From assembly GCF_900114325.1 (NCBI RefSeq), contig NZ_FOSR01000006.1, positions 62,001-126,000 of the forward strand: a stretch of 64,000 bases of DNA, read 5' to 3'. Both the position numbers and the translations under genes were made by a program. This document shows, one piece after another, positions 6,486-63,552 of the stretch; position 1 is the stretch's first letter; each line of letters starts with the position of its first letter. The DNA comes from Rhodanobacter glycinis. GTDB lineage: Bacteria > Pseudomonadota > Gammaproteobacteria > Xanthomonadales > Rhodanobacteraceae. Under the pieces are notes generated by a model. It made no database searches, was not told the DNA's origin, and saw only the letters and a list, made by a program, of their open reading frames with translations.

Positions 6486-6842
6486 GACCATGGGCCGCGA
6501 ATTTGTGCCGGAATCATGGCCTTCGATCGCCCCGCCCTGCACCACGGCGGGCTCGACGTCACGGCATGGATTTATTCCGGAGCCATGGCTTTTGCTCAAA
6601 CGCACTTTGGGGGGCATCGAAGACCCTCTGTCACCCCAGCGGCTCTCAACAGCCGAAGGGCTGGTCAAGCTGGGGTCCAGTGCCGTCCACCCATTGAAAA
6701 GCAAAGGCGCTGGATTCCTGCTTTCGCACACTGCTGTCCGGAATAATCCTGGGATGTCCTTCGAGAGTGAATACCCGCGCCGCTTGCGCGAGATGCAACA
6801 AGGGGGCGACTCCATTTCTGGCAGCGACCACCTCTCCGGCTC

Positions 6843-6959
6843 GTCATCCCGGCGCAGGCCGGAGGCGCCTTTCAACAGACGGCTGTCTGGTCATCCAGTA
6901 GCGATCACGCCTGTCCAAGCCATATGGCTACTGGATTCCGGCCTTCGCCGGAATGACGG
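6843..6959. repeat. CGTCATCCCGGCGCAGGCC inverted pair
   Basis: Left unit CGTCATCCCGGCGCAGGCC at 6843 onward, right unit ending GGCCTTCGCCGGAATGACG at about 6959. Similar units occur at 12298-12392, 17450-17515 (single), 30190-30240, 31860-31925, 42650-42775 and 49708-49795. Confidence 0.7.
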
Positions 6960-17381: not shown

Positions 17382-17535
17382 CGCCGCACATGCCCTCATT
17401 CCCTGCTCCATCACGTGGAAGCGTGCAAGCGGCGGAATCAAGGGCAAGGCACTGGATGACCAGGCATCCGTCTGTTGAAAAGCGCCTCCAGCTTTTGCCG
17501 GAATGACGGGCAAAATCAGATTTTCCCTGGACCGC

Positions 17536-21392: not shown

Positions 21393-22213
21393 GGGGTCAG
21401 AGTGCACTTTCCGACAGGAGATGGTGGCGTGATCCGACAGACCGTCGCATGGTGCGTGGGGAAACTGGCGACACGCCCATACGGATGCCGCCATGCCTCG
21501 CCAGCCACGACTCGATCTTGCCCAGATACCCCAGCACGTCGTCCAGCGCGGCAATGATCGCCAGCCGTGCTTTTTCACCGACATCGATCGTGTGCGTTAC
21601 CTGCAAGACCTGCGCGAGATCGCCATGCGCGAGGGATGCCACGTCCACGCCTACGTGCTCATGACCAACCACGTACATCTGCTGATGACGCCCGCCGCCA
21701 GCGGCCAGGTTGCGCGCGTCATGCAATCGCTGGGGCGGCGCTACGTTCGCTACATCAACGATCGTTACCGGCGCACCGGCACATTGTGGGAAGGACGCTA
21801 CAAGTCATCACTGGTAGATCGGGAAACCTACCTGCTGCACTGCTACCGCTATATCGAGTTGAACCCGGTCCGCGCTCGCATGACCGCCGATCCACTCGAC
21901 TACGCGTGGTCGAGCCACGCACACAATGCCTTCGGCCGCGCCGATCCGCTTATCCATCCGCACCCGACCTATCTGGCTCTGGGCAGAACAGGCCAGGAGC
22001 GACAGCGCGCCTACCGCGCCCTCGCCATGGAAAACCTATCCCAGGATCATCTCGACGCCATCCGCATCCACCTGCAACGTCAACACGCCCTGGGATCTGA
22101 GCGCTTCCGCACGGCTATCGAAGCGCAGCTGTCACGCCGTGCAGGGCCGGCGAAAATCGGGCGCCCGCGCAAAAAACCTCCAGAGTGAAGCTCGGAAAGT
22201 GCACTCTGACCCC
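21393..22213 (+). mobile_element. REP-associated transposase element with 22-bp inverted ends
   Basis: The element is bounded by a perfect 22-bp inverted pair: 21393-21414 (GGGGTCAGAGTGCACTTTCC plus GA) and 22192-22213. It contains one transposase gene (21493-22188) with little else. Single or degenerate copies of the same end sequence occur at 22815-22882, 23041-23083 and 24331-24349. A related perfect inverted pair lies inside icmF (28689-28772). This is the layout of a RAYT with its dispersed palindromic repeats. Confidence 0.85.
21493..22188 (+). CDS. REP-associated tyrosine transposase (RAYT, Y1/HUH type)
   Basis: 231 residues. It opens MPRQPRLDLAQIPQHVVQRG, the standard RAYT start. The HUH metal motif reads TNHVHLL (H60, H62) and catalytic-tyrosine candidates lie in CYRYIELNPVRA (Y118-Y120). 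The C-terminus is basic (GRPRKKPPE), as expected for binding REP hairpins. RAYTs nick single-stranded DNA at palindromic repeats and are thought to have spread REP sequences; they are usually single-copy and vertically inherited. The 22-bp inverted ends flanking it give the likely target sequence. Confidence 0.9.
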   Translation: MPRQPRLDLAQIPQHVVQRGNDRQPCFFTDIDRVRYLQDLREIAMREGCHVHAYVLMTNHVHLLMTPAASGQVARVMQSLGRRYVRYINDRYRRTGTLWEGRYKSSLVDRETYLLHCYRYIELNPVRARMTADPLDYAWSSHAHNAFGRADPLIHPHPTYLALGRTGQERQRAYRALAMENLSQDHLDAIRIHLQRQHALGSERFRTAIEAQLSRRAGPAKIGRPRKKPPE

Positions 22214-22659: not shown

Positions 22660-23107
22660 CAACTTAGGCCCATACTGGCATCTGGTGCCCGACACGGCGG
22701 TGGTATCCGATGGGTTGAGCTGTGTCCCTGGCGTGCTTGAAGCGGACTGCACCCACGAAAAAGAGAAAAAAGGTGCCAAGGACAATTAGCCGCTGAGCCA
22801 CTCACCCGTAAAGAAACAGGGGGCAGGGTCGACTTTTACTAGCGGCTTTGCTCAAAGAAAGTGCACTCTGACCCCTGTTTTTATCGCAGCAAGCGCCGGC
22901 TGTACTCGGTGATGCGACTGGGCCGCGAAGCGCTCGTGCGACGATGGTTGCCGATCTCGGTCTCGCGCCTTCTTGATCAGCTACGACAACCCGCCACATC
23001 CTTGATTGATCAACTGGGTGTACCAGCATGAAAACGTGGGGAAACCTCAGACTCTGACCCCTGTTTTGGACCCCTGTTTTGGTGGTGGTTTTGTATTTTC
23101 TTATTGG
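22660..23107. other. Spacer with decayed transposase sequence and repeat ends
   Basis: Contains a degenerate inverted pair (22815-22837 with 22857-22882) of the RAYT end sequence, a short coding-like tail at 22883-23029, and a doubled GACCCCTGTTTTGG sequence at 23041-23083. No intact gene. Confidence 0.55.
22883..23029 (+). pseudogene. Possible C-terminal fragment of a transposase
   Basis: An open stretch without a start, reading RSKRRLYSVMRLGREALVRR then WLPISVSRLLDQL and ending at TGA 23027-23029. The composition is basic and coding-like, and it sits between two RAYT-type end sequences. I suspect a transposase C-terminus (IS4-like), but the evidence is only style and context. Confidence 0.3.
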
Positions 23108-26359: not shown

Positions 26360-29300
26360 CTACATATTCCTCCGATACTCCCCCCCCACCTCATACAACG
26401 CATGGCTGATCTGCCCCAAAGAGTTGTACTTAACTGCCTCAATCAACTGCTCAAACACATTCCTACGCTCCCGCGCCGTCGTCTGCAGCACCTTCAGACT
26501 ATCCGAAGCCAGCGCATTCCGCGCCTCCCCATAACTCCGAACATTGGCAATCTGCGCCCCCTTCTCCTCCTCCGTCGACCGAATCAACTCGATCTCCGTG
26601 GCAATCTCCCCCGCATGATCCTTCGGCAAGAACGTATTGACGCCAATCAACGGCAACGACCCATCATGCTTCTTGTGCTCGTAATACATCGACTCGTCCT
26701 GGATCTTGCCGCGCTGGTACATCGTATCCATCGCCCCAAGCACGCCGCCGCGCTCGCTGATCGCCTCGAACTCCTTGTACACCGCTTCCTCGACCAGGTC
26801 GGTCAGCGTGTCGACGACATAGCTCCCTTGCCACGGATTCTCGTTGAAGTTCAGCCCCAGCTCCTTGTTGATGATCATCTGGATCGCCACCGCGCGGCGC
26901 ACGCTTTCCTCGGTAGGCGTGGTGATCGCCTCGTCGTAGGCGTTGGTGTGCAGCGAGTTGCAGTTGTCGAACAGCGCGTACATCGCCTGCAGGGTGGTAC
27001 GGATGTCGTTGAACTGGATTTCCTGCGCGTGCAGTGACCGGCCACTCGTCTGGATGTGGTACTTCATCATCTGGCTGCGCGCGCTGGCGCCGTAGCGCTC
27101 GCGCATGGCGCGGGCCCAGATGCGGCGGGCGACGCGGCCGATGACGGTGTATTCCGGGTCCATGCCGTTGGAGAAGAAGAACGACAGGTTGGGCGCGAAG
27201 TCGTCCACGCTCATGCCGCGGGCGAGGTAGTACTCGACGATGGTGAAGCCGTTGCTCAGGGTGAAGGCGAGCTGGCTGATCGGGTTGGCCCCGGCTTCGG
27301 CGATGTGATATCCGCTGATGCTGACCGAGTAGAAGTTGCGCACCTTGTGGTCGACGAAGTACTGCTGGATGTCGCCCATCATGCGCAGCGCGAATTCGGT
27401 GCTGAAGATGCAGGTGTTTTGCGCCTGGTCTTCCTTGAAGATGTCGGCCTGCACGGTGCCGCGCACCTTGGTCAGGGTGTCGGTCTTGATGCGGGCGTAG
27501 GTTTCCGCGTCGACCAGGTCGTCGCCGCAGACGCCGAGCAGGCCCAGGCCCAAACCGTCGTTGCCGGTGGGCAGGTCGCCCAGGTATTGCGGGCGCTGGC
27601 GGCCTTCGTAGAGTTTGTCGATCTTCTTCTGCGCGGCGGCCCAGCGGGCGGCGTCTTCGCGCAGGTACTTTTCAACATTTTGGTCGATGGCCGTGTTCAT
27701 GAACATCGCCAGGATCATCGGCGCGGGGCCGTTGATGGTCATGGAGACGGAGGTGCTGGGCGCGCTGAGGTCGAAGCCGGAGTACAGCTTCTTCATGTCG
27801 TCCAGGGTGGCGATGTTGACGCCGGAGTTGCCGATCTTGCCGTAAATGTCCGGGCGCGGGGCCGGATCCTCACCGTACAGGGTGACCGAGTCGAACGCGG
27901 TGGACAGGCGCGTGGCGGCGCCGCCCTGGCTCAGGTAATGGAAGCGGCGGTTGGTGCGCTCGGGCGTGCCTTCGCCGGCGAACATGCGGGTGGGATCTTC
28001 GCCGCTGCGGCGGTATGGGTAGACGCCGCCGGTGTACGGGTAGTGGCCGGGCAGGTTTTCCTTGCCGAGGAAGGTGAGCAGGTCGCCCCAATCCTTGGAC
28101 TTGGGTGGGGCGACTTTCGGGATTTTCTGATGGCTGAGGGATTCGCGGTAGTTGTCGACCTTGATGACCTTGTCGCGGACTTTGTATTCGTTGAATTCGG
28201 CGGTGACCGATTCGAACAGTGTGGGCCAGTGGCGCAGTTGTTCGATGGCTTCGTGACTGAGTTCCTTCAGCGCGGCGTTGTAGCGCTGGCGCAGGAGGAG
28301 CATGGAGCGGTCGACGTGAGGGGACGCTTCGACTTCGCCCTGCGGGCTACGCTCAGCGCGAACGGTTTCATGTTCGTTACCAGCCGACCCATCCGTTCGC
28401 CCTGAGCGTAGACGCGCAGCGTCGGAGTCGAAGGGCTCGTGCAGCTCGGCGTTGCGGTACAACTCCAGCGGCTTGGGCAATTTGTCGTCGCCCAGCTCCT
28501 TCAGCGCTTCGTAGTAGTGCTGCGCCTTGCTGGCGAACTCGGCCTGGGTCTCGATGCCCTGGTTGATGGCGCGGCCCTGCTCGGCGATTTCGGCGAGGTA
28601 GCGCACGCGGGCGCCGGGGATGAGGACGGTGGCGCGGGGGGATTTGAGGGTGGTGTCGAGGTTGGGTTGCCAGTCGCAGCCGGAAAGGAAAAGGGGGTCA
28701 GAGTCACTTTTCGACTCAGAACCAACAAGACCAGCGGCGTACGCACTCGAAAAGTGACTCTGACCCCCTTTTCCCGCGCCGAGGTGGAGTTTCTCGCGCA
28801 TCAGGCGACACAGGTTGGTGAACATCCAGGTGACGCCCGGATCGTTGAACTGGCTGGCGATGGTGGGATAGACCGGCACGTCCTCGTCCTTGACGTTGAA
28901 CGCGGTGCGGTTGCGCTTCCACTGCTTGCGGATGTCGCGCAGCGCGTCTTCGGCGCCGCGCTTGTCGAACTTGTTCAGCACGATGAGTTCGGCGAAGTCG
29001 ATCATGTCGATCTTCTCCAGCTGGCTGGCGGCGCCGTAGTCGCTGGTCATCACGTAGGTGGGGAAGTCGACCAGGTCGACGATTTCCGAATCGCTCTGGC
29101 CGATGCCGGCGGTTTCCACGATGACCAGGTCGTACGGCTGGCTCTTCAGGAAGCCGATGCAGTCGTGCAGCACGATGCTGGTGGCGGCGTGCTGGCGGCG
29201 GGTGGCCATGGAGCGCATGAAGACGCGATGGCTGCGCAGGGAATTCATGCGGATGCGGTCGCCGAGCAGCGCGCCACCGGAACGGCGGCGGGTGGGATCG

Positions 29301-30037: not shown

Positions 30038-30476
30038 GGGGGACTCCGTAAAACCTTGGTGATCAGCCCCGTGATTCTAGTGGCTGGGGGCTGTCATCCG
30101 CTGACGCACTGCCGCATAAGCGAAGGCGTGCGTCGGTGCGTGGAAAATCGCCACGGAAGCAGGGGCGGTCTCGAAAAACTTCGCCGGACACGTCATTTCA
30201 GCGAAAGCTGAAATCCAGTGCCTTTGCTTTTCAAGAGACTTGAAGTGGCCGGATTTCGGCTTCCTGATTGGCGATGACGATCAGCCCAAAAGGCCGTTCG
30301 AACCGAGCGAAGCTTGCGTCGGCAAGCACAGGCGCTCCCTTCGACTCCGGCCCTGCGGGCCTACGCTCAGGGCGAACGGTAAGGTCTCGGCTGAACCTTG
30401 TCGCCCATCAGGCCCGGCCTGCGCCGGAATGATTGCGTTATTCGAGGTTCCCAACAGGGCCCTCCATGTCAGCGCA
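30038..30476. other. Spacer between icmF and chaB with palindromic repeats
   Basis: Two repeat stretches: a CGTCATTTCAGCGAAAGCTG unit at 30190-30235 and a CTTCGACTCCGGCCCTGCGG unit at 30337-30380, with a degenerate partner at about 30285-30335. The icmF promoter must lie in 30050-30180 but no boxes stand out. No gene. Confidence 0.55.
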
Positions 30477-30858: not shown

Positions 30859-31656
30859 ATGAACGCGCGAACCCTGGCCACCGCCCTGGCCACCCTGCTG
30901 CTGGGCGCCTGCGCCACCTCGCCCACCGGCCGCTCGCAATTGATGATGGTGTCCGATGCGCAGATGAGCCAGATGGGCCTGACTGCCTTCAACAGCATGC
31001 GCAAACAAGGCAAGTTCGTGGACGCGCCACGCCAGCTGGCCTACGCCACCTGCGTTGCCAATGCGCTGATCGCGGTGCTGCCGCCGCCGTGGAACACGCA
31101 ATCGTGGGAGGTGCAGATCATCGGCGACGACAGCGCCAATGCGTTTGCCCTGCCCGGTGGCCGCATCGGCGTGAACATGGGCATGTTCAAGGTGGCCACC
31201 GACCAGAACCAGTTGGCAGTGGTGCTGGGGCACGAGCTGTCGCACGTGGTGGCGCGGCACGGTGCCGAACGCATGTCCGATCACCTGGCAGCAGAAGCCG
31301 CGGTAGCCGCCGGCACCATCTACGCCGGCACGCGCGGCACCAATACCGGCTATGCCGCCGCCGCATTGGGGCTTGGCGCGGAGGTCGGCCTGTTGCTGCC
31401 GTTCTCGCGCACCCAGGAAAGCGAGGCGGACGAACTGGGCCTGCGCTACATGGCGCGTGCCGGCTTCGACCCGCGTGCCGCCCCGGCGCTGTGGCAGAAG
31501 ATGGCGCAGCAAGGCGGCAGCAAGACCCCGGCCTTCCTGTCCACCCATCCCTCGTCGGCGCATCGCGAAGCGGTGCTGGGACAGGAGGCGCAGCAGCTGA
31601 TGCCGGTGTACCAGCAGGCACGCGCCAGCGGGCATGCGCCGAACTGCCGGATGTAG
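30859..31656 (+). CDS. M48-family metalloprotease lipoprotein (LoiP/BepA-like)
   Basis: 265 residues from ATG 30859. Lipobox LLGAC (Cys18) gives an outer-membrane-directed lipoprotein (+2 Ala). The zinc motif HELSH is at 125-129 within LAVVLGHELSHVVARHGAER, and the third ligand is in ESEADELGLRYM (about E180-E184). Family members (LoiP, YfgC/BepA) degrade or help assemble outer-membrane proteins. The C-terminal part has THPSSAHREAV, typical of the soluble M48 lipoproteins, with no TPR domain seen. The stop codon TAG is the first triplet of a 165-base palindromic repeat, which may act as terminator. Confidence 0.85.
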   Translation: MNARTLATALATLLLGACATSPTGRSQLMMVSDAQMSQMGLTAFNSMRKQGKFVDAPRQLAYATCVANALIAVLPPPWNTQSWEVQIIGDDSANAFALPGGRIGVNMGMFKVATDQNQLAVVLGHELSHVVARHGAERMSDHLAAEAAVAAGTIYAGTRGTNTGYAAAALGLGAEVGLLLPFSRTQESEADELGLRYMARAGFDPRAAPALWQKMAQQGGSKTPAFLSTHPSSAHREAVLGQEAQQLMPVYQQARASGHAPNCRM

Positions 31657-31818
31657 GAGCGTGGGCGGCAGAAATCTTCCGGACTGCAAAAGTGGCTGCG
31701 TGGTCCATATGTCCGTCGTTTCTTGGCCCATAGAACCACTATGGGCCGGCGAATCGTCGAAAATCTGTCCTCACGCAGCCACTTTTTCGCTTCGAAAGTT
31801 TCTACCGCCCACGCTCCC
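31654..31818. repeat. Long TAGGAGC-type palindrome, copy A
   Basis: An imperfect inverted repeat of about 165 bases. Outer arms TAGGAGCGTGGGCGG and CCGCCCACGCTCC; central dyad GGCCCATAG AACCA CTATGGGCC (about 31725-31747). Copies B (33141-33306, opposite orientation) and C (63346-63510) share the core. It begins with the stop codon of the M48 gene. Confidence 0.85.
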
Positions 31819-32068
31819 AGGGCGCAGCCCCACGCGCGACGCATCGACATCACGCTTTGTTCGTCATTCCGGCGCAGGCCGGAGGCGCCTTTCAACAGAC
31901 GGCTGTCTGGTCATCCAGTGGCCGTATGGCCTGGGCAAGCGTAGCCGCCGAAACCGAGTCATTCCCAGTACAAGCTGAACAAGGCTACGCACACACGTCA
32001 ACACAGGCGCCGGTACGGCGTTTTCCGTCTTGCACGCCGCCGATGGCGGCCATGACGGAGAACACACC
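31819..32068. other. Spacer with a CGTCATTCCGGCGCAGGCC unit
   Basis: A single repeat unit of the CGTCATTCCGGC family at about 31860-31925, nearly identical to the left half of 6843-6959 (including CGGCTGTCTGGTCATCCAG). Otherwise no feature until the SD of the next gene. Confidence 0.55.
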
Positions 32069-33035: not shown

Positions 33036-33140
33036 GCGACGCGCCACCCACATCTGCGCACGCTTGTCATGCTGCGCCGCGAAAGCAGTGGCCTCGGCAA
33101 GGGACTAAAATTGACTGGATAAACTCATCGCCCCGGCCTC

Positions 33141-33306
33141 TAGGGGCCTGGGCGGTAGAAACTTTCGAGGCGAAAAAGTGGCTGCGTGAGGACAGATTTT
33201 CGACGATTCGCCGGCCCATAGTGGTTCTATGGGCCAAGAAGCGACGGGAATATGGACCACGCAGACGCTTTTGCCGTCCGGAAGATTTCTCCCGCCCAGG
33301 CTCCTA
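33141..33306. repeat. Long TAGGAGC-type palindrome, copy B
   Basis: About 166 bases, the reverse orientation of copy A: GCCTGGGCGGTAGAAAC on the left, CCCGCCCAGGCTCCTA on the right, central GGCCCATAG TGGTT CTATGGGCC (about 33213-33235). It sits 114 bases before the dehydrogenase start. Confidence 0.85.
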
Positions 33307-34593: not shown

Positions 34594-34841
34594 ACGGGCT
34601 CCGCATGGCCGGTTTTGTAGGAGCGCACCCTGTGCGCGAATGCTCTGGCGTCCGCTCGAAGCAAGAGCCATCGCGCACAGGGTGCGCTCCTACATGCGAA
34701 TTCGGTAAGGCTTTGAAATCGCCTGCACCGGAGCGACGCCCCCCCATGAAGCACCTGAAGCTTCGCCGACAGGTGGGGGATTTTCGCGCGCGCTCCGTTA
34801 CATCGAAGGCGACCCGATCGGCGGGTCTGTCGTCTTTCATC
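34594..34841. repeat. Spacer with a TAGGAGC-type hairpin (34617-34693)
   Basis: Perfect 23-bp arms 34617-34639 and 34671-34693 with the GCGCACCCTGTGCGCGA version of the stem. No gene otherwise. Confidence 0.8.
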
Positions 34842-42620: not shown

Positions 42621-42888
42621 AAACAGTCCACGTCCATCGCGCGCCCTCAACGTCATTCCGGCGCAGGCCGGAATCTAGTGAAACATGTCGTGCGCAGCAC
42701 TCGAAACAGGCTTTGTGCGCTTCACGCGAGATATCTGACTGGATTCCGGCCTGCGCCGGAATGACGGGCAGCAAACCCAGCGACTTCGCGAGCACCCACC
42801 CCTCACCCCAACCCTCTCCCCCACGGGGAGAGGGAGCGGAGCGCGCACGATTCGTGACCACGAAACCATCGACAAGGATGCCGCCAGC
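42621..42888. repeat. Repeat-bearing gap inside the polyene cluster
   Basis: A CGTCATTCCGGCGCAGGCC inverted pair at about 42650-42775 and a CCCCTCACCCC / CCCTCTCCCCCACGGGGAGAG half-palindrome at 42796-42838. It splits the cluster into transcription blocks after the exporter gene. Confidence 0.65.
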
Positions 42889-45379: not shown

Positions 45380-45509
45380 GGGCCTCCCGGGAAACCCGCA
45401 AGGCATCCGTGGGTAAGAGCGCACCCTGTGCGCGATGGCTTTGGCGCCGGTCGAAGCCAGAAGCGTTCGCGCACAGGGTGCGCTCCTACACTGACTTTTC
45501 GAGGTGTCC
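45380..45509. repeat. TAGGAGC-type hairpin in the polyene cluster
   Basis: Arms 45413-45435 and 45467-45489 (one mismatch; GTAAGAGC on the left). It lies between KS 2 and the chain-length-factor-like gene. No other feature. Confidence 0.8.
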
Positions 45510-52964: not shown

Positions 52965-53042
52965 GTAGGAGCGCACCCTGTGCGCGAATGCTTTTCGCCG
53001 AGGACCGGCATTAGAGCATTCGCGCACAGGGTGCGCTCCTAC
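52965..53042. repeat. TAGGAGC-type hairpin after the polyene cluster
   Basis: Perfect 28-bp arms 52965-52992 and 53015-53042 of the GCGCACCCTGTGCGCGAATGCT version. It lies just after the last cluster gene and may act as terminator in addition to being a repeat. Confidence 0.85.
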
Positions 53043-63174: not shown

Positions 63175-63552
63175 CTGATTGTCCCCGCTACACATTCCGT
63201 GTCACGACCGACGCGGCAAGACCCCATCCTGCGGTCGGCTACGCGGCACAGTTTGGCATAACCGCCATGCACCGGAACGCTCCCTGGCAGACGTCGAGCG
63301 GTCCGGTTTGCCGCGCCGCATCATGGGCTGCGATAATCCGAAGGCTAGGAGCCTGTCGTACTTTGGTGGTCGAGGCGAAAACTCGGCTGCGCGAGGACAG
63401 ATTTTCGGCGATTCTTGACCCATAGTGGTTCTATGGGTCAAGAATCGACGGAAATATGGACCGTGCAGACGGATTTGCAGCCCGGCCGACCAAAGTACGA
63501 CAGGCTCCTACTCCCGGGCGCATCGCGCCTCCACGTTCCTGCGGAGATCCCC
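63175..63552. repeat. Spacer with long palindrome copy C (63346-63510)
   Basis: Copy C of the TAGGAGC-type palindrome: left arm from TAGGAGCCTGTCGTACTTTG, right arm ending CAAAGTACGACAGGCTCCTA, central CTTGACCCATAG TGGTT CTATGGGTCAAG. Its outer arms differ from copies A and B but remain perfectly paired. The rest of the spacer (63175-63345) shows no feature. Confidence 0.85.

Follow-up and report, generated by a model that had tools for sequence, protein, structure and literature searches.

Three palindromes in a Rhodanobacter glycinis contig belong to a mobile family of DNA hairpins of about 165 bases

What kind of sequence changes the letters of its arms and yet keeps them paired? The window considered here, meaning the whole 64,000-nucleotide stretch of Rhodanobacter glycinis DNA that was analyzed, raises this question three times. 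An earlier note had described palindromes A, B, and C as one element family whose outer arms differ between copies while each remains self-complementary and whose center changes from GGCCCAT/ATGGGCC in A and B to TTGACCCAT/ATGGGTCAA in C. Both the differing arms and the central swap are real, and the copies lie where that note placed them (Table 1), except that copy A, whose start stands, ends at 31817 (GCTCC), 1 base short of the 31818 given before. Copy A runs opposite to B and C and is 93% complementary to B across 168 nt. The predicted fold of copy C has an energy of -114.7 kcal/mol, compared with -52.3 for its shuffles (z -14.7), and that of copy B reaches -102.6 kcal/mol (z -10.4); in each case, 0 of 200 shuffles was as low. 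All three are members of a mobile DNA hairpin family of about 165 bases found in a gammaproteobacterial group.

Table 1. Positions of the three palindromes and their parts in the window
Feature	Position	Strand	Remarks
Copy A, class 1 arms	31654..31817	-	L018; loop AACCA at 31734-31738
Copy B, class 1 arms, variant GCCTGGGCGG	33141..33306	+	L001; loop TGGTT at 33222-33226
Copy C, class 2 arms, entire element with TA at either end	63346..63510	+	L027
Left outer arm of copy C, TAGGAGCCTGTCGTACTTTGGTGG, 24 nt	63346..63369	+	Pairs with right outer arm; unlike class 1 arms of A and B
Core of copy C, common to both arm classes	63370..63485	+	Match 25-141 of query
Apical stem of copy C, GATTCTTGACCCATAG / CTATGGGTCAAGAATC, loop TGGTT 63426-63430	63410..63446	+	
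Right outer arm of copy C	63486..63510	+	Complementary to left outer arm
CTAG, left junction of copy C	63345..63348	no strand	
CTAG, left junction of copy B	33140..33143	no strand	

The window holds other dispersed repeats as well. One, TCGTCATCCCGGCGCAGGCCGGAGGCGCC.., occurs at 6841-6920, 17450-17514, 31856-31940, and 42651-42766; one of its copies adjoins copy A, and at 42651-42766 the repeat forms a palindromic pair whose ends are similar. A third dispersed repeat family, CCGTTCGCCCTGAGCGTAGGC..GTCGAAGGG, lies at 653-728, 28386-28435, and 30337-30412.

How large is the family to which A, B, and C belong? When its own genome (3.87 Mb in 29 contigs) was searched with copy B, 37 matches were returned, comprising 28 mapped copies (L001 to L028) and at least 2 more degenerate ones; the other rows fall at the same place on the opposite strand. 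Identity to copy B is 82 to 100% for 24 of the 28. The outer arms fall into two classes, each of 24 nt and each starting TAGGAGCSTG: class 1 (TAGGAGCGTGGGCGGTAGAAACTT) is carried by L001 to L025 and class 2 (TAGGAGCCTGTCGGGCTTGGGTGG) by L026 to L028. Copy B was matched in 8 of 15 genomes of the genus. From 28 genus copies, some of them from the own genome, a covariance model (R1) of the 119-nt core was built; it detected the core in 40 of 147 genomes of the host's bacterial family, representing 12 of 26 genera, with the highest count in the own genome (24). A scan with a protein of the window gave Dyella ginsengisoli (78%) as its best named hit, followed by Rhodanobacter, which pointed to Rhodanobacteraceae as the probable host family. 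The element displays the traits of a miniature inverted-repeat transposable element (MITE), being small, devoid of coding capacity, bounded by terminal inverted repeats, and present in multiple copies. Phages and plasmids contained no match to it. A viral or plasmid origin was rejected; four viral-contig pattern scans gave 0, 0, 0, and 8 hits, of which the 8 were due to chance, the element being absent. No description of the family was found in the literature searched by motif strings, titles, and the starts of abstracts, and a term search of PMC12306157 gave no hits for these genera. As far as these searches show, this is a new palindromic mobile family in which one strand holds the fold.

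Does the pairing itself matter? The earlier note argued that it does from covariation, for which three copies are insufficient as statistics by themselves; in larger collections, the argument holds, with covariation far above chance in two alignments. The first, A1, comprises 34 genus-level copies aligned without reference to structure. It leaves out L005, L006, L008, L009, L012, L014, L015, L017, L018, L019, L021 to L025, L028, and L053, which are mostly near-identical own-genome, insert-bearing, or partial copies. RNAalifold folds A1 into one hairpin of 62 pairs, 34 of which show a compensatory double change. Pairing is retained in 96.8% of cells, compared with 84.0% after shuffling, and double changes occupy 263 cells, against 81.6 in shuffles and 27 to 49 in slid controls; 0 of 500 shuffles attained any of the measures, although shuffles ignore relatedness, so that these figures, here and below, are not probabilities, while the slid control keeps relatedness. 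The second alignment, A3, is an independent set from other genera, none of whose copies was used in building the model. After filtering by score (75) and length and exclusion of L206, 53 references remained, and omission of L142, which is from the same genus, brought these to 52. Among 56 pairs, 44 show a double change; 95.1% of cells are paired (81.3% in shuffles), and double changes fill 373 cells, versus 98.0 in shuffles and 40 to 90 in slid controls. In A3, the unpaired columns within the element are more conserved than the paired ones (0.892 versus 0.810, P = 0.0002), while in A1 the difference is not significant (P = 0.62), and the mismatched segments TCGAGGCGAAAA versus TTTGCAGCCCGG and GAGGACAG versus ATGGACC are conserved.

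Is the duplex or one of its strands the object of this constraint? If duplex DNA alone mattered, one-sided changes should produce G.T and A.C pairs equally. Two counts were made: one took the pairs in which Watson-Crick combinations are in the majority, and the other took the union of the pairs predicted for the two strands, which removes the bias of folding one strand only. Over the union pairs, G.T exceeds A.C in 29 versus 13 in A1 (P = 0.02) and in 33 versus 11 in A3 (P = 0.0013), with the reservation that pairs in one phylogeny are not fully independent. The 25 class 1 copies of the own genome, taken alone, give 17:12 distinct changes, a bias that is not clear. The strand with the loop TGGTT, taken as canonical, also folds better than its complement. 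RNA parameters give this result in 32 of 34 copies of A1 and 52 of 52 of A3 (84 of 86 in total); with DNA parameters, it holds for 34 of 34 and 52 of 52 (86 of 86). The fold is strand specific, an indication that selection acts on a single-stranded form, whether RNA or single-stranded DNA (ssDNA).

Scattered, near-identical copies imply movement, and the sites that they occupy can be compared with those of relatives. The flanks of 15 own-genome copies were joined and searched against four relatives. Empty sites whose junction reads CTA were found for L010 (4 of 4 loci), L022 (3 of 4), L014 (2 of 2), and L009 (1 of 1), and for L006 the empty site reads CTG in two relatives, with three other loci lacking a readable junction; L013, L015, L017, L021, and L025 were unreadable, and no spanning match was listed for L002, L005, L007, L008, and L016. 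Several relatives lack the element where copy C sits (for example, CTATCTCGG in G013), and G012 lacks it at the site of copy B. The scatter of near-identical copies and the unoccupied sites of relatives, mostly CTAG, show that the element is mobile. Eight older copies were treated likewise. Six were readable (L034, L038, L041, L044, L045, and L046), and their sites are empty with no clear CTAG or TA duplication; L035 found only itself, and the loci matching L037 were not retrieved.

What do the ends reveal about how the element arrives? End analysis covered 95 of 117 copies, the other 22 having been dropped for unreadable ends or low scores. TA is found at both ends in 27 of the 95, and CTAG is found at either end in 22 of 27 own-genome copies and 39 of 68 others. 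The tetranucleotide is rare in the window, with 23 seen and 77.7 expected from dinucleotides, a depletion of about 3.4-fold that may help explain the decay of TA ends to CA and TG. Within the own genome, the two ends are unequal: TA stands at the left in 14 of 27 copies and at the right in 23 of 27 (P = 0.018), and the right flank starts with T in 26 of 27, versus 18 of 27 for the left flanking pair (P = 0.011). Such asymmetry would fit a left TA that is carried by the element. The copies of relatives are symmetrical (29 of 68 at the left, 30 of 68 at the right), which fits a decayed duplication. The recent empty sites are compatible with TA duplication within CTAG and also with a carried TA.

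Taken together, these properties suggest that the element is probably a MITE-like, nonautonomous mobile element, some 165 bp long, that propagates via a hairpin folded from one strand. Insertion would occur mainly at the rare CTAG, with TA left at both ends, and movement would be carried out in trans by a separate enzyme. During propagation, one defined strand would fold into the long hairpin, so that pairs are kept while letters drift, and the conserved mismatched segments may serve for protein recognition. We lean slightly toward ssDNA in transposition, rather than RNA, as the single strand concerned. The earlier note had offered a structured RNA or a folded single-strand intermediate of transposition. 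That reading is partly supported, in that pairing is kept in A1 and A3 and the strand asymmetry favors one strand. Mobility is likewise supported by the scattered copies and empty sites; searches for Y1 and DDE_3 (PF13358) genes yielded no enzyme to which the movement could be assigned.

What sort of enzyme might be involved? One serious possibility, though with less than an even chance, is that the element is REP-like and is moved by an HUH (Y1) transposase of the RAYT type, which would cut the folded strand at C^TAG and carry TAGGAGC..GCTCC, the right TAG coming from the target. The strand-specific fold agrees with this, as does the asymmetry of the own-genome ends, which look as if the left pair were carried and the right one belonged to the target. 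CT is the common cleavage site of TnpA-REP, according to the excerpted text of PMC8266576. The own genome has two Y1 (HUH) transposase genes, the second of which, at 105465-105785 of contig C8, lies between REP doublets GTAGGAGCG.., in which the TAGGAGCG of the element ends recurs. However, neither gene is flanked by the element; other repeats flank them. Nor is Y1_Tnp associated with it across genomes (27 of 40 with the element versus 71 of 107 without, P = 1.0), and G013 and G014 hold copies and no Y1 gene. The mirrored end positions are also about equally conserved in the 68 copies from relatives. As to the surroundings of these genes, the HUH (Y1) RAYT-type gene of the window (21493-22188) has perfect 20-bp inverted repeats, GGGGTCAGAGTGCACTTTCC, at 21393-21412 and 22194-22213, with an extra one-mismatch copy at 22856-22875; these fit the GGGGWSAS type of terminal inverted repeat described in the part of PMC3733652 consulted. 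Ordinary REP doublets, GTAGGAGCGCACCCTGTGCGCGA, form inverted pairs at 34617-34694, 45413-45490, and 52965-53042, and the same doublets flank the Y1 gene on C8.

Somewhat less probable is an ordinary DDE MITE, of an IS630/Tc1-like or other family that duplicates TA, which moves as a duplex and inserts at CTAG with TA duplication; the hairpin would then be no more than a by-product of long inverted repeats. IS630 prefers CTAG, and the CTAG empty sites and the copies with TA at both ends are what such an element would leave. TA ends and a duplicated TA are likewise features of ERIC-type elements in the excerpt of PMC2759123. Against this, duplex recognition predicts zero strand bias, contrary to the bias seen, and DDE_3 (PF13358) is absent from the own genome and from all 12 good genus genomes (0 of 12). 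An IS630-type transposase was therefore rejected for the own genome. A scan of the own genome for a gene bounded by the element's arms found none, the end-pattern hits either pairing at element length or looking like remnants or chance.

Which parts of the element are exchanged, and could covariation arise with no selection for pairing? L117:951-1211 (G000:C19:14150-14410) has class 1 outer arms around an unrelated inner core, and other genera carry both classes and further arms (e.g., ..CCTGTCGGACTTATGGAA in L155, L188, and L189) on the same core; outer arms and core are swapped as modules. A 26-nt insert occurs in the own genome on the left side in L022 and L024, on the right in L023, and in both arms of L025. 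A G-to-T substitution in GCGTGG affects the left arm alone in L025, the right arm alone (mirrored) in L011, and both arms in L023. We read this pattern of left-only, right-only, and both-arm occurrence as copying between arms, and such copying can generate covariation in the absence of selection. That such copying (quasi-palindrome correction) alone made the covariation is nevertheless unlikely. It would erase the mismatched segments, yet those are conserved across genera, and it yields no strand bias; both points speak against arm copying as the whole explanation. The insert, moreover, could represent independent insertion at similar ATTT/TCG motifs, since L118, with class 2 arms, holds the insert of L022 to L025 at a different place.

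The setting of the copies bears on whether the host makes use of a transcript. By a rough, home-made gene caller, 25 of the 28 own-genome copies are placed between two genes, in the orientations ++ (8), -- (6), +- (6), and -+ (5), and the lack of a strong orientation pattern ill suits a transcript-borne function. Copies A and B, separated by 1.3 kb, run in opposite directions, as do L008 and L025 at a distance of 3 kb, which argues against a strict lagging-strand or other replication-strand preference. A host-useful structured RNA acting in mRNA stability, RNase processing, or regulation and repeated by chance is the least probable of the alternatives: the strand-specific fold with its tolerated G.U pairs and conserved internal loops would accord with it, and MITEs, including Correia and ERIC, act in transcripts (PMC10969869, in the part available), but the copies occupy unrelated, recently filled sites, 5 of 25 own-genome copies lie between divergent genes, and Rfam gave 0 matches in the window at the gathering threshold. 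Low-threshold Rfam matches, nearly all to eukaryotic miRNA or snoRNA hairpins, fell below curated cutoffs and were rejected as a known RNA. Integron attC sites were set aside as well, the element ends, TAGGAGC, being unlike the attC core.

Does the element ever enter genes? An in-gene screen of 114 copies left 24 rows past a codon-position filter; ten open reading frames were scanned, and only two proved to be one protein flanking the element on both sides. In G004 (L046:1048-3117), a class 2 copy lies inside an open GlnD frame that is matched by the Pfam and NCBIfam GlnD models; where a relative reads ILGSSAGMAMDTF, G004 reads ILGSRSLSD..QAPSGMAMDTF. In G144 (L199:428-1441), a diverged copy lies inside TrpC: by phmmer against 6y88, residues 17-196 and 255-329 align with chain positions 5-184 and 190-264, and the gap is the element. 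The glnD element has 163 nt and that of L199 has 162, and the frame is retained with the one longer. Both copies are read from the same strand in a common element frame, one that stays open in 51 of 109 copies, and each insert adds about 55 residues. More speculatively, and with the odds against it, the outer arms, internal loops, and apical stem might each act as a separate module that an enzyme recognizes on a single folded strand. The element would then be neither a duplex MITE nor a REP of 20 to 40 bp, spreading through a bacterial family and at times adding a peptide of about 55 residues to core enzymes (for example, GlnD and TrpC).

Where does this family stand among known repeats? To our knowledge, how ERIC-like palindromes move is still an open question. 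By analogy, the behavior of the element appears related to that of ERIC, REP, and Rickettsia palindromic elements, and we read it as a nonautonomous element of that kind. The ERIC, or IRU, elements of enterobacteria (RU-1 and RU-2) are 100- to 170-bp intergenic stem-loop repeats with TA ends, with intragenic open-frame copies reported and a transfer mechanism that is not settled (excerpts of PMC2759123 and PMC10969869). The imperfect palindrome and TA ends are present here too. The taxon differs, however, as do the interchangeable outer arms and the family-wide, strand-biased covariation, and copy B had no match in 20,395 records of E. coli (E <= 0.01), which carries ERIC (PMC10969869, same excerpt). 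With REP/BIME and RAYT systems (GTAG repeats), the element has in common the TAGGAGCG foot of the own-genome REP doublets, and stems that vary by complementary change, with G.T pairs noted, are reported for GTAG families in the excerpt of PMC3733652. REP units there are 20 to 40 bp, in contrast to one 165-nt hairpin with conserved internal loops, and a RAYT gene flanked by the element was not found in the own genome. Correia/NEMIS, RUP, Nezha, and other bacterial MITEs are similarly small, noncoding, inverted-repeat, and multicopy (PMC3733652 and PMC10969869, in part), whereas the present element is palindromic over almost its entire length and has exchangeable arms, and no parental IS was found. 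Because the family provides recent copies along with empty sites, exchangeable arms, and a strand-specific fold that has been quantified, the form that is recognized (duplex, ssDNA, or RNA) is directly testable in this family. Finally, Rickettsia palindromic elements offer a likeness in insertion behavior: the part of PMC10969869 consulted describes in-frame palindromes in conserved metabolic genes, and the same is seen here in another taxon, though for only two verified copies of the 114. The in-frame glnD and trpC copies carry the Rickettsia type of palindrome within a protein over to another bacterial group.
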